Origin: Chloroflexota bacterium
Lineage (GTDB): Bacteria > Chloroflexota > Anaerolineae > Anaerolineales > Villigracilaceae
NCBI GenBank assembly: GCA_021787595.1
Contig: JAJYLQ010000002.1
Coordinates: 62,001-126,000, forward strand
Length of the DNA: 64,000 nucleotides
Direction: 5' to 3'
Translations under genes and position numbers: made by a program
In this document: one piece after another, positions 9,644 to 58,689 of the stretch
How positions within the stretch are numbered: the stretch's first letter is position 1
Layout of the letters: every line of letters begins with the position of its first letter
Notes under the pieces: model-generated
Databases searched by the model: none
Seen by the model: only the letters and a program-made list of their open reading frames with translations
Told to the model about the DNA's origin: nothing

Positions 9644-9678
9644 CCTCACCCCCATCCCCTCTCCCGTTGGAAGAGGGA
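9644..9678 (+). repeat. Palindromic repeat, CCCTCTCCC/GGGAGAGGG family (decayed copy)
   Basis: CCTCACCCCCAT followed by CCCTCTCCC, a GTTGG loop and AAGAGGGA is a degenerate copy of the element found intact inside glyQS at 21912-21957. Here it sits just before the glmU ribosome binding site. Confidence 0.7.
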
Positions 9679-9692
9679 AACAGGAGACGAAA

Positions 9693-11057
9693 ATGAAAGT
9701 TATTGCTGTCATCTTGGCCGCGGGCCAGGGCACGCGTATGAAATCCGATCTGCCAAAAGTGCTGCATCCTTTGTGCGGCAGGCCGATGATCTGGCATGTG
9801 CTGGAAGCGTTGAAAAAAGCCTCGACGGAAAAACCGGTTGTGGTTGTCGGTCACGGCGCGGAACAGGTAAAGGATTATGTTGCAGATTCCGCTGTCTGCG
9901 TCGAGCAGGAGCCGCAATTGGGAACCGCGCACGCTGCACTGCAGGCCGAGTCAATCGTCAAAGGCAAAACAGATTATGTGATTATCACGTACGCGGACAT
10001 GCCGCTCCTGCCCGCGGATGTTTTTCAGCGGCTGATCGAAACCCAGCGGGTCAATCCCGGACCCTTGAGCCTGTTGACCGTTATCGCAGAGGATCCGCGC
10101 GGCTTCGGGCGAATCGTCCGCAACGCGCGCGGGACGGTGGATGCCATCGTCGAGGAATATGTTGCAACGCCCGATCAGCTTGCGATCAAGGAACTGAACG
10201 TCGGCGCATATTGTTTCGAATCCGAATGGTTGTGGGACGCATTGCACCGCATCGAAAAGAATCCGCAAAAGGGCGAATATTATCTAACAGATATCGTCGA
10301 GCTTGCTGTGAAGGAAAATCTCCCGGTGCAGGCAGTTGTCCATGAAGATTTGATCGAGACGATTGGAATCAATACGCGCGTCCATCTTGCGGAAGCGGAA
10401 GCTGCCATGCGCCAGCGGATCAATCGCCGGCACATGTTGAACAGCGTAACGATGATGGATCCAGTTTCAACGTATATCGAAGCGGATGTAACGATTGGCA
10501 AAGATACGGTCGTTTTGCCCAACACTTATATTCATGGCAAAACTGGGATCGGCGAACATTGTTGGATTGGCCCGAACACATATATCCGCGATTCGCAAAT
10601 TGGGAATGGATGCAAGGTGTTCATGTCCGTCGTGGAAGGCGCGGTGCTGGAGGAGGGCGTGGATATGGGCCCGTTTGCCCGCCTGCGAAGCGGAGCGCAT
10701 CTTGGACGACATGTCCACATGGGCAATTTCGGCGAAGTAAAAGATTCGCATCTTGCCGAAGGTGTCAAAATGGGACATTTCTCGTACATCGGCAACGCGA
10801 CCATCGGCGCAAACACGAACATCGGCGCGGGAACGATCACCTGCAATTACGATGGCGAAAAAAAGAATCCAACCGAGATTGGTGAGGATGTGTTCATCGG
10901 ATCAGATACGATGCTTGTTGCGCCGCTGAAGATCGGCAACGGCGCAAAAACCGGTGCGGGCGCAATCGTCACGAAGAATGTCCCGCCCGAAACGCTCGTT
11001 GTTGGAATGCCTGCGCGCGCCATCAGGAAAGTCGAAAGAAAGGCCGGGAAGCATTGA
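9693..11057 (+). CDS. glmU: Bifunctional GlcNAc-1-phosphate uridyltransferase / GlcN-1-phosphate acetyltransferase
   Basis: The 454-residue enzyme makes UDP-GlcNAc, the precursor for cell-wall and surface polymers. ATG 9693 follows AGGAG (9682-9686). The N-terminal nucleotidyltransferase has LAAGQGTRMKSDLPKVLHP (from residue 7), TYADMPLL and GTAHA. The C-terminal half is a left-handed beta helix of hexapeptide repeats (IGANTNIGAGTITCNYDG), the acetyltransferase region. Length and both halves match GlmU. It stands between a tRNA and cdd and is probably monocistronic or co-transcribed with cdd. Confidence 0.96.
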   Translation: MKVIAVILAAGQGTRMKSDLPKVLHPLCGRPMIWHVLEALKKASTEKPVVVVGHGAEQVKDYVADSAVCVEQEPQLGTAHAALQAESIVKGKTDYVIITYADMPLLPADVFQRLIETQRVNPGPLSLLTVIAEDPRGFGRIVRNARGTVDAIVEEYVATPDQLAIKELNVGAYCFESEWLWDALHRIEKNPQKGEYYLTDIVELAVKENLPVQAVVHEDLIETIGINTRVHLAEAEAAMRQRINRRHMLNSVTMMDPVSTYIEADVTIGKDTVVLPNTYIHGKTGIGEHCWIGPNTYIRDSQIGNGCKVFMSVVEGAVLEEGVDMGPFARLRSGAHLGRHVHMGNFGEVKDSHLAEGVKMGHFSYIGNATIGANTNIGAGTITCNYDGEKKNPTEIGEDVFIGSDTMLVAPLKIGNGAKTGAGAIVTKNVPPETLVVGMPARAIRKVERKAGKH

Positions 11058-20033: not shown

Positions 20034-20101
20034 TATAATCCCCTCAGCAATCAGCAATCAGCAATCGCCAATCTAAAATCAGAAATCTTCAATCGAAAAT
20101 G
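20034..20101 (+). promoter_or_regulatory. glyQS -10 box and heptameric-repeat leader
   Basis: TATAAT at 20034-20039 is followed from 20046 by eight consecutive 7-base units: AGCAATC three times, then GCCAATC, TAAAATC, AGAAATC, TTCAATC and GAAAATG. The last unit contains the start codon. The predicted 5' untranslated region is therefore entirely repeat, and no Shine-Dalgarno is present. Confidence 0.65.
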
Positions 20102-23100
20102 CCTCTCAACTTTCAACAAGTCATCCTCAAGTTACAAGAATTCTGGGCGGAACGCGGCTGTGTGCTCTGGCAGCCCTATTACACCCAGGTCGGCGCAGGG
20201 ACGATGAACCCCGCCACCTTTTTGCGCGTGCTCGGTCCCGAGCCGTGGAACGTGGCGTATGTCGAGCCATCCATTCGTCCCGACGATGGACGCTATGGCG
20301 AGAATCCGAATCGCTTCCAACAGCATTATCAGTTTCAGGTGATTCTCAAGCCCGATCCCGCCGCAGGTCCCGCGGGCGAAGGTACGCGGGAGGGACCGCA
20401 GGAAATCTATCTCAACTCGCTCAAAGCTATCGGCATTGACCCGCGCCAGCACGACATCCGCTTTGTGGAAGATAACTGGGAACAACCCGCCATCTCCGCG
20501 TGGGGACTCGGTTGGGAGGTCTGGCTCGATGGGCAAGAGATCACGCAGTTCACGTATTTCCAACAAGTGGGCGGCGTGTCGCTCGATCCGGTTGCAGTCG
20601 AGATCACGTACGGACTCGAACGCATTTTGATCGGCTTGCATAACGTCAAAGCCGCGTGGGATTTGCCGTGGAACGATTCGATCACGTATGGCGAAGTCCG
20701 CAGGCAGGAAGAGTTCGAGCACAGCAAATATTATTTCGAAGTCGCCGATGTGCAAGCCATGCGCGAAGTCTTCGAACGCTTCGAACGCGAAGCCGAGGCC
20801 TGCCTCGCGCAAGGGCTGGTTGTCCCCGCGCACGATTATGTTCTCAAATGCTCGCACATCTTCAACACGCTCGATACGCGCGGCGCGGTCGGCGTCACGG
20901 AACGTCAGGCTTTCTTTCGACGAATGCGCGAGTTGGCGCGTCGGGTTGCGGAAGCATATCTTGAGCAACGCAAGGAATTGGAATATCCGTTGCTAAAGCA
21001 GACCGTGGACCGTGGACCGAAGACCGTCCACCGTCCACTGCCCACCGTCTCTCAGCCATTGCCATTCATCTTAGAAATAGGTGTAGAGGAATTGCCTGCC
21101 TCCGATGTGGACTCCGCCCATGCATATCTTGTAACTCGTATCCCGCAACTTCTCAACGAATTGCGACTTGAACACGGAAACATTCGCATCTTCTCGACCC
21201 CGCGGCGGCTCGTCGTTTCGATAGCGAATCTCAGCCCGCGCCAACCCGACCGTGAAGACCTCGTCAAAGGTCCACCCGCGGACAAGGCTTTCGATAAAAA
21301 TGGAATCGCCTCACCTGCGGCAATGGGCTTTGCCAAAAAGAATGGCGTGAATACCAAAGACTTGCAAGTCCGCGAAGAGAATGGAGGCAAATATGTCTTT
21401 GCCGTTGTCAAACAAAGCGGACGCTCAACGCCTGAAGTTTTACCTGAAGCATTGCCCAAATTAGTTGAAAGTATCAAGTTCGAAAAGTCCATGCGATGGA
21501 ATGAAAGCGGCGTGGCGTTCTCGCGCCCGATTCGCTGGTTCGTGGCTTTGCTTGGCGACCAAGTGATTCCATTTGAATATGCTGGTGTGGCTTCGAGCAA
21601 TGTTACGCGCGGATTGCGTCCATACGATTCGCCGGAGATCAAAATCTCGTCTGCGGATAAATACTTTGACATGATTCGGGAAGCGGGAATCGTGCTCGAT
21701 AAAGAAGAACGCAAAGCATCCATTGTGGAACAAGTCAAACAAGCCGCGGCTTTGGTCAACGGTGAAGCCATTATTGATGACGATTTATTGAATGAAGTTG
21801 CCAATCTCGTCGAAATGCCAACAGCGGTGATGGGCGAATTCAATTCTGAATTTTTGCAATTGCCGCGCGAAGTGTTGATTTCAGTGATGAAGAAACATCA
21901 ACGATATTTTCCCCTCACCCCCGTCCCCTCTCCCACTGGGAGAGGGCAGGGTGAGGGATTATTGCCTCACTTCATTGCCATTCGCAACGGTGATGACATT
22001 GGCATTGATCTCGTCCGCCAGGGAAATGAACATGTTCTCGGCGCGCGCTTCGCGGATGCAAACTTCTTTGTCCGCGAAGACTTGAAACACAAGCTGGAGG
22101 AATTCCGTCCAAAGCTTTCCGGCTTGATCTTCCAAACCAAACTCGGCTCGATGTTGGATAAGTCCGAGCGCATGTTGAAACTGGTGGATAACATTGCGCT
22201 CATGCTCGGAATTGCCAATGACCAATTACCAATTGCCCAACGTGCAACTTATCTTGCCAAAGCTGATTTGACGACTCAAATGGTTACCGAGATGACTTCA
22301 TTGCAAGGAATCATTGGGCGCGAATATGCAGTGCGAAGCGGTGAGAATGCCGAAGTGGCATTGGCAATCGGCGAACAATATCAACCTGTGCCGAAATCGA
22401 AGATCGGTGTTGCGATTGCGTTGGCAGATCGAGTCGATTCGTTGGTTGGACTCTTTGCGGCGGGATTAGCTCCCACAGGTGCAAAAGATTCCTTTGGATT
22501 GCGCCGCGCCGCGATCGGCGTTGTCCAACCGTTGATCGAACATGGCATTTCATTTGATTTGCGTGAAGCAATCAAGAAAGCCGCAAAGTTGCAACCGATT
22601 GCTGTCAGTGATGAAATTCAAAATCAAGTATTGCAATTTATCGCTGGACGTTTGAGCGTTGTGTTGAAAGACGCCGGTTACAAATATGATGTTGTTGACG
22701 CGGTGCTGGCAGAGCAAAGCAATAACCCCGCAACATCGGCTGAAGCAGTGAAACAACTTCAAGCGTGGACGGAACGTAAAGATTGGCGCGAGATTCTCCC
22801 GGCCTTCGCACGCTGTGTTCGCATCACGCGCGATCAAAAACAGACATTCAAAGTGAATCCGAAGAACTTCGCGGAGAAAGCAGAAGAGGCATTGTTCAAA
22901 GCTTTGGAGAAAGCCGAGTCCGCTTCACGTCGAGAAGGAAGCGTGGATGATTTTCTCAATTCCTTTGCCCCGATGATTCCTTCCGTCAATGAATTCTTCG
23001 ATAAAGTTCTCGTCATGGCTGACGATAAATCCTTGAAAGAAAATCGTCTCGGCCTGTTGCAAAGGATCGCGGCGCTCTCGAAAGGGGTTGCCGACCTGAG

Positions 23101-23119
23101 CAAACTCGAAGGGTTCTAA
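20099..23119 (+). CDS. glyQS: Glycyl-tRNA synthetase, alpha-beta fusion
   Basis: The 1006-residue enzyme charges tRNA-Gly. Residues about 1-295 are the alpha (catalytic class II) chain, with [36 protein letters not shown] and GLERI; residues from about 318 are the beta chain ([14 protein letters not shown]). The two are separate genes (glyQ, glyS) in many bacteria. The junction, residues 301-314, is encoded by a palindrome (21001-21040). A second palindrome at 21912-21957 encodes [15 protein letters not shown] in a beta-chain loop just before [13 protein letters not shown]. Frame and motifs are otherwise intact. Confidence 0.95.
21001..21040. repeat. Palindromic repeat at the GlyQ-GlyS junction
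   Basis: GTGGACCGTGGAC (21006-21018) and GTCCACCGTCCAC (about 21026-21038) are inverted copies with a single central mismatch, separated by CGAAGACC. The element encodes the [16 protein letters not shown] linker between the two synthetase chains. Confidence 0.75.
21912..21957. repeat. Intact CCCTCTCCC/GGGAGAGGG palindromic element inside glyQS
   Basis: The outer arms CCCTCACCC (21912-21920) and GGGTGAGGG (21949-21957) and the inner arms CCCTCTCCC (21926-21934) and GGGAGAGGG (21938-21946) pair perfectly with an ACT loop. The 46-bp element keeps the frame open. A related degenerate copy lies before glmU at 9644-9678. Confidence 0.88.
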
Positions 23120-58539: not shown

Positions 58540-58689
58540 TTTCACCTTTTGCGCTTCACTTCTCGCTTTTCTTTTTACGTTCTGCTTCCTGCTTTTTCCA
58601 TTTACTTTTTACGTCCTGCGTTTTTCTTTTGTTTTTTGCGTTTTGTGCTTTGCGCTTGTTCTTTGCGTTTTGTGCTTTGCTTTTTGCCA
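58540..58689. repeat. Low-complexity quasi-repeat (TTTTTGCGTTTTGTGCTTTGC-like)
   Basis: About 150 bases consist of imperfect 7- to 20-base units such as TTTTTACGT, TTTTTGCG and TTTGTGCTTTGC. Two long units (GCGTTTTGTGCTTTGC) near 58643 and 58664 are identical. It separates the M20 and PfkB genes and has no coding sense. A purine-rich relative follows ino1 at 62271-62299. Confidence 0.65.

Follow-up and report, generated by a model that had tools for sequence, protein, structure and literature searches.

The glycyl-tRNA synthetase gene glyQS of this Chloroflexota bacterium carries, in frame and in a turn of its beta part, a palindromic element that is almost certainly a member of the BoxC/intrastrand triplex motif (TM) family, and DUF559 nucleases have probably helped this family to spread. 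The presence of BoxC elements in E. coli has been known since the 1990s. The element lies in the window, the stretch of 64,000 nucleotides analysed here, whose source is a draft genome of 4.08 Mb in 63 contigs. The relevant features of the window are the following:

9644-9678, + strand: second, degenerate half copy of the element, preceding the next ORF (ATG at 9693)
20044-20100, + strand: TCAGCAA heptamer repeats that immediately precede the start of glyQS (TRF)
20099-23119, + strand: glyQS, fused alpha and beta glycyl-tRNA synthetase, 1006 aa (ORF; NCBIfam TIGR00388 and TIGR00211)
21001-21049, + strand: GACCGTG / ACCGTCC heptamer repeats in the alpha/beta linker of glyQS (TRF; linker alignment)
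21912-21957, + strand: palindromic element, CCCTCACCC-5-CCCTCTCCC-3-GGGAGAGGG-2-GGGTGAGGG, which codes for a 15-residue peptide
21913-21946, - strand: triplex-motif pattern on the opposite strand (pattern start 21913); the motif is thus found on both strands
21926-21957, + strand: BoxC/triplex-motif core, CCCTCTCCC ACT GGGAGAGGG CA GGGTGAGGG, with the stems of E. coli copies 1, 2 and 17
22210-22234, + strand: weak AATTACC heptamer repeat in the glyS coding sequence (TRF)

The element consists of four 9-nt arms, CCCTCACCC (21912-21920), CCCTCTCCC (21926-21934), GGGAGAGGG (21938-21946) and GGGTGAGGG (21949-21957). The first-pass annotation had described it as a perfect nested palindrome. Nesting and perfect pairing of all four arms hold, but the spacers between outer and inner arms are unequal (5 and 2 nt), and it is therefore a nested hairpin rather than a strict palindrome. 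The ORF at 20099-23119 confirms its location in the GlyS beta part of glyQS, where the 15-residue peptide sits between KKHQRYFP and, as had been noted, a directly following conserved stretch of 13 residues. The claim that an essential gene was entered without being broken agrees with the position of the element, in frame within the 1006 open codons of glyQS. Folding of the element yields -36.4 kcal/mol (z -4.7) as RNA and -18.5 (z -4.35) as DNA, and in neither case was any of 200 shuffled sequences equally stable. Neither a GTAG nor a CGTC tag is found at its ends, a single CGTC being located within the inner spacer. Of the features expected for a MITE, inverted arms are present, and the relatives have diverged at the site, so that a target-site duplication is not definable there.

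Half-elements with up to three mismatches match twice in the window, compared to 0.05 matches expected. The copy at 9644-9678, which had been assigned to the same family and placed outside a gene, is real and indeed lies outside a gene. It is, however, not a full copy but a half element whose arms are C-rich and whose right half is degenerate, and it lies a short distance upstream of an ORF that starts with the ATG at 9693 and is presumably glmU. The gene glyQS itself is open in most of the relatives that were read; a single break was found, in L042 (genome G050), where the frame is broken upstream of an intact loop. Its alpha/beta linker contains repeat-like sequence in several Anaerolineales, the kind of which differs by species. 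The repeat at 22210-22234, in turn, is perhaps due to chance, because its length hardly varies among relatives. Tandem repeats with periods of 7, 14 and 27 are also seen at 58567-58687 of the window.

The assignment to BoxC is based on the stems, since all 27 stem letters of the glyS element are identical to those of E. coli copies 1, 2 and 17. The core shares 28-29 of 33 letters with four E. coli copies. In the accessible part of PMC4666352, the BoxC/triplex motif of E. coli, for which the name PIT is also in use, is exemplified by CCCTCTCCCTGTGGGAGAGGGCCGGGGTGAGGGC and has the consensus CCCTCTCCC-GGGAGAGGG-GGGTGAGGG with short loops between the stems. Judged by its letters, our element conforms to the rule for a putative intrastrand triplex, namely pyrimidine, purine and purine mirror stems with short loops. 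Many copies per genome and inverted pairs are further traits that the two have in common. The stem-loop-stem-loop-stem pattern has 54 and 57 strand-wise matches on the two strands of the window's own genome and none in the reversed control, and the looser half-arm pattern has 101 and 102. These strand-wise matches are not equal to distinct elements, because a complete four-arm element can match on each strand. Overall, the triplex-motif pattern is present in 40 of the 61 genomes searched, the own genome included. Thus, of the earlier description as a mobile or spreading element, the genome-wide repeat family stands, while its mobility is something we infer, with no transposition, excision or target-site duplication seen at the sites compared.

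Copies inside and between genes, for which a genome-wide count had been suggested, were counted in a sample of 464 kb, comprising the window and 400 kb from three contigs that were chosen, not at random, but in the knowledge that matches are present. The sample contains 17 triplex-motif matches at 14 places. Two forms of the family are found: short solo elements, and longer ones that have conserved flanking sequence in addition to a second hairpin. Genes were called by a crude ORF scoring of our own, which placed 16 of the 23 short copies in genes. Removal of two at called 5' edges (window position 9646, upstream of the ATG at 9693, and C41:202313) leaves 14 of 23, all located at least 40 codons inside called genes, whereas none of the six long copies was called in a gene. 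The coding fraction of the four sample pieces is 0.80-0.87, and the short copies therefore avoid genes only slightly. Moreover, 22 of the 23 short copies are stop-free in four or five of the six frames. The 23 copies of E. coli K-12, in contrast, are reported to be always intergenic in the part of PMC4666352 available, which is a matter of habit and not part of the definition of the motif. Seven host proteins were scanned, and all have Pfam matches: metH, a ligase of the LplA-B family, recG, aconitase, a glycosyltransferase, a subunit of a proton-translocating NADH:quinone oxidoreductase/antiporter and a SHMT/GcvT fusion. SecA and DnaE, named by reading their sequence, appear to be hosts as well. 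In dnaE (G000 C19:54660-61202) we also noticed an apparent in-frame palindrome near the C-terminus and what seem to be two insertions of the intein type, of which one includes an additional nuclease-like stretch. The longer two-hairpin element (TTCTCCCTCACCCTTTCCCTCTCCC...) is highly conserved in the own genome (e.g., L060, L061 and L064-L066).

The turn of GlyS that harbours the element is a re-used site for different repeat-like inserts across many relatives. We collected 160 glyS loci, duplicates included, 157 of which were readable (L146, L155 and L182 were not). They contain 109 distinct loops, and all 109 are in frame, as expected if they are translated. The 80 named loci that are nearest by GlyS stem nearly all from MAGs with an Anaerolineales or Chloroflexota label, and the title of one names Blastopirellula. 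The turn is near-empty, with at most one residue beyond the seven-residue form, in 31 of the distinct loops, while 72 have at least three extra residues, up to a maximum of 43. The solved homologue PDB 7lu4 also has a short turn, which reads RYFPVYTREGQLLPYF. These findings agree with the expectation of the first-pass annotation that orthologues have a short turn, and the peptide coded by the element is not conserved in distant GlyS proteins. Regular expressions sort the inserts into about a dozen classes, among them BoxC-like inserts, GTCGAAG-type and CAATTAC heptamers, GTAGGGGCG palindromes and GACAC types, with 13 loops classed as other. On a GlyS tree (FastTree, 107 tips, loop left out), the 14 loop labels need at least 55 changes, where 13 is the minimum possible and 69.4 the mean of shuffled labels. 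Among genomes of the window's own genus, G000, G003 and G004 have a BoxC-like turn, G001 has another C-rich palindrome there, G005 an insert of the GACAC type, and the turn of G002 is empty. The inserts replace or erode residues of the turn, which blurs their exact junctions. In a model of GlyS beta, the insert corresponds to residues 284-298, between strands 282-286 and 302-308, and pLDDT is below 50 at residues 291-296. Two classes were examined for interspersion in the genome. The own genome was used for BoxC and a set of five genomes for the GTCGAAG type, and three of these five contain a total of nine GTCGAAG-type copies outside glyS. The GTCGAAG/CTTCGAC heptamers (L329-L339) recur in G007, G034 and G021.

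A second hot spot is seen in the inter-domain linker of metH (L211:14045-18166 in G000 C19; L269-L298), whose contents in relatives range from whole palindrome-DUF559 units through solo palindromes and heptamer repeats to almost nothing. In the own genome, metH contains, in frame and between the pterin-binding and the B12-binding domains, two palindromes, a DUF559 domain (PF04480, residues 735-842) and more palindrome sequence. Thirty metH loci were fetched and 24 were readable, and the frame is open in all 24. A whole palindrome-DUF559 unit is present in frame in nine of them, a BoxC-like solo palindrome in two (L283 and L288), another repeat-like insert in ten, of which L284 also passes the C-rich test, and a near-empty linker in three. 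DUF559 units also occur in frame inside other long ORFs (L254, L255, L260 and L261), some of which read like DNA methylases, to judge from NPP[FY] motifs in their sequence.

In-frame insertion into protein genes, which the accessible parts of PMC10969869 and PMC3733652 describe for several palindrome families of Rickettsia (Rickettsia palindromic elements, RPE), is likewise found in glyS, in metH and in the sampled copies. RPE differ from the family described here in being elements of about 150 bp that belong to Rickettsia, a separation that follows their description in these sources, and no link of RPE to DUF559 is mentioned in the available parts of either (PMC10969869, PMC3733652).

The DUF559 protein resembles homing endonucleases both in sequence and in predicted fold. 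A profile built from 43 DUF559 sequences matched two PDB entries, one for the homing endonuclease I-Bth0305I (3r3p, E 1.1e-5) and one for an endonuclease-like protein from Neisseria (3hrl). Foldseek searches with a structural model (pLDDT 89) recovered the same two entries, I-Bth0305I with an E-value of 1.7e-4, and Vsr at a lower rank. E64, D66, H70 and D79, which we read as the probable EDxHD residues, are invariant in the 43 sequences, and the acidic and histidine positions are also kept in the copy embedded in metH. This is in line with the literature, as far as the sources were available, in which a DUF559 gene is assigned to the EDxHD homing family (PMC9403480) and a DUF559 protein of Caulobacter is described as Vsr-like (PMC12907096). 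Unlike EDxHD/Vsr-like homing endonucleases, however, the DUF559 described here lies between palindromes, where it either stands free or forms an additional domain within the MetH reading frame, and neither an intein nor an intron was seen around it at our loci.

C-rich palindromes are associated with DUF559 genes well beyond metH. A locus was scored as positive if at least one of its flanks contained, no farther than about 265 nt away, an exact inverted repeat of 8 nt or more whose left arm is C-rich. This applies to 47 of 49 distinct DUF559 loci, 28 of the 30 listed by the search and 19 of 19 that were fetched partly because they lie in long ORFs (20 were fetched, one of them a duplicate). 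The corresponding figures are 38 of 361 for control genes and 4 of 436 for random windows. DUF559 was detected in 119 of the 152 genomes of the family. The control list for DUF559 contains no match for E. coli although YcjD matches PF04480, and it can therefore not be read as evidence of absence. With a completeness cut applied and kinship ignored, genomes with DUF559 (n=119) have a median of 13 half-elements and those without (n=33) a median of 2 (Spearman 0.46), some of the latter still having up to 25. Moreover, the type of palindrome matches the DUF559 phylogeny in part. It changes 12 times on the DUF559 tree, in a count that leaves nine loci without an assigned type and is inflated by near-copies, compared to a mean of 27.7 in shuffled data, and none of 200 shuffles was as low. 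Type T3 is not clustered on the tree, 55 of 500 shuffles being as low, and seven of the 11 BoxC-type rows represent one metH insertion site that may be inherited. Finally, an inverted-repeat match between the left and the right flank (score of at least 60) was found at 9 of 64 loci, 7 of 18 on plasmids and 2 of 46 in Chloroflexota, and in none of 372 swapped pairs. In Sinorhizobium meliloti, the sequences on the two sides of DUF559 align as near-identical inverted repeats across 114 columns and include BoxC-like arms.

The plasmid loci stem from a tblastn search that gave 41 records, 18 of which were picked for taxonomic spread (Synechocystis, Azospirillum, Sphingomonas, Sphingobium, Deinococcus, Sinorhizobium, Shinella, Methylobacterium, Photobacterium, Pseudanabaena and Picosynechococcus, with four records each from Azospirillum and Deinococcus). 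Seventeen of these 18 loci, from Alpha- and Gammaproteobacteria, Cyanobacteria and Deinococcota, passed the flank test. Of the far windows of the last eight records, 7 of 152 did so, five of them in the Photobacterium record. On the plasmids of Synechocystis (L319) and Picosynechococcus (L328), DUF559 genes adjoin DUF1156 genes, and in the former DUF559 seems to split its DUF1156 neighbour. The association is also found in E. coli K-12, where ycjD is a DUF559 gene (Pfam E 1.4e-49) whose end is 167 nt away from number 9 in the published list of BoxC copies. If the 23 copies were placed freely, one of them would come to lie 250 nt or less from a given gene with a probability of about 0.004; with placement restricted to intergenic sites, this probability would, by our estimate, rise a few-fold. 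The last codons of ycjD (L348:1540-2330, E. coli K-12 MG1655) overlap another CCCTC-type arm. Among 5426 complete E. coli genomes, 5375 match the ycjD region, and in 3362 the match spans 80% or more of it. According to the accessible part of PMC4666352, its authors found the motif to have no mobility genes nearby, whereas we find DUF559 beside such palindromes, E. coli ycjD included. In the open-licence PMC literature, to the extent of the text available, a link between DUF559 and palindromes was not found.

The link to DUF559 rests on position and phylogeny, and the palindromes could be targets rather than cargo. Hairpin or triplex DNA breaks easily, and a homing-type DUF559 enzyme might integrate into or beside such breaks while the palindromes multiply by other means. 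The likeness of DUF559 to homing endonucleases, the solo palindromes at the same metH site in relatives and the connection of the E. coli motif with genomic instability, as described in the available part of PMC4666352, all fit such passive targets, but we consider them rather unlikely. The palindrome type changes with the DUF559 clade overall, T3 and the possibly inherited metH rows aside, the copies on the left and the right can match each other, inverted and almost identically, beyond the hairpin as well, rare as this is in Chloroflexota, and palindrome counts, with kinship ignored, are higher where DUF559 is present. Alternatively, inverted repeats and heptamers might owe both their origin and their spread to template switching, slippage and repair, with no dedicated mobiliser, and be kept where the protein tolerates them. 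A 7-nt period in 20 of 67 long glyS loops would suit this scenario, as would the fact that seven of the nine GTCGAAG-type copies outside glyS lie within open frames of more than 300 codons, a figure that reflects frame length alone and comes from three relatives. We nevertheless consider it improbable, since for the CCCTC family local slippage would not yield 27 identical stem letters from Chloroflexota to E. coli.

The best-known precedent, REP/REPIN elements with RAYT transposases (the REPtron), is similar in that small palindromes surround one nuclease gene and non-autonomous copies are found elsewhere, some of them inside genes that include tRNA synthetase genes (PMC3733652, in the part accessible). 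It would thus be conceivable that our elements are REP-like and mobilised by a RAYT with a Y1 tyrosine domain, the more so as Y1 domains occur in 60 of the 61 genomes searched, with six matches in the own genome. Yet C-rich palindromes flank only 1 of 15 readable Y1 loci (20 were fetched), which is no more than for control genes, the element lacks GTAG and CGTC at either end, and the nuclease found beside the palindromes is Vsr/EDxHD-like and not a Y1 transposase. We therefore rejected RAYT/Y1 as the mobiliser and regard a REP-like origin as very improbable. A hairpin that functions in the mRNA, or a translational bypass, selected for regulation in glyQS, would account for the strong predicted stem and for the folding of long loops (at least five extra residues), 31 of 67 of which have an MFE z below -2 compared to 10 of 134 control windows from the same genes. 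Nevertheless, such a function is most unlikely: the 31 near-empty loops lack an insert in practice, the inserts vary widely in sequence and strength, the same elements are also found in unrelated genes, and a bypass would not need the frame that every insert read maintains. Finally, the draft state of the genome might suggest an assembly artefact, and a palindrome can arise by chance. The same gene, turn and open frame recur in many independent assemblies, and the genome-wide counts, with zero in the reversed control, and the excess in the window led us to reject both, the probability of which we consider negligible.

We therefore return to an element of the BoxC family that was probably spread by DUF559. 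A BoxC/triplex-motif palindrome would have been inserted in frame into the beta-hairpin turn of GlyS, where the copy would be translated in the cell as a flexible loop of 15 residues. GlyS may tolerate this loop because the turn accepts almost any length, which would explain why different repeats became fixed there repeatedly. The family would most likely have been spread by DUF559 endonucleases, relatives of the EDxHD/Vsr-like I-Bth0305I, which may cut at or move these palindromes. The putative autonomous unit would consist of palindrome, DUF559 and palindrome, and solo palindromes would be non-autonomous copies that are moved or copied in trans, in the way RAYT transposases act on REPs. DUF559 cannot explain the whole glyS hot spot, because the heptamer-type inserts have no known mobiliser.

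On a more general proposal we are evenly divided, namely that DUF559, YcjD in E. coli, may be the mobilising nuclease of BoxC/triplex-motif palindromes across phyla, in analogy to RAYTs for REPs. Such a system would be suited to life inside genes, as its palindromes code for linkers rich in proline and glycine and are stop-free in most frames, which would account for solo copies in loops of enzymes and for whole units in MetH and other proteins as unspliced extra domains. At the glyS and metH sites, a protein has been remodelled repeatedly at one point by different repeats while the frame was kept, and the two sites provide a natural experiment that probes which loops of essential enzymes can take up additional peptides. 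If DUF559/YcjD is the mobility gene of BoxC, the spread of BoxC becomes testable in a standard laboratory strain.
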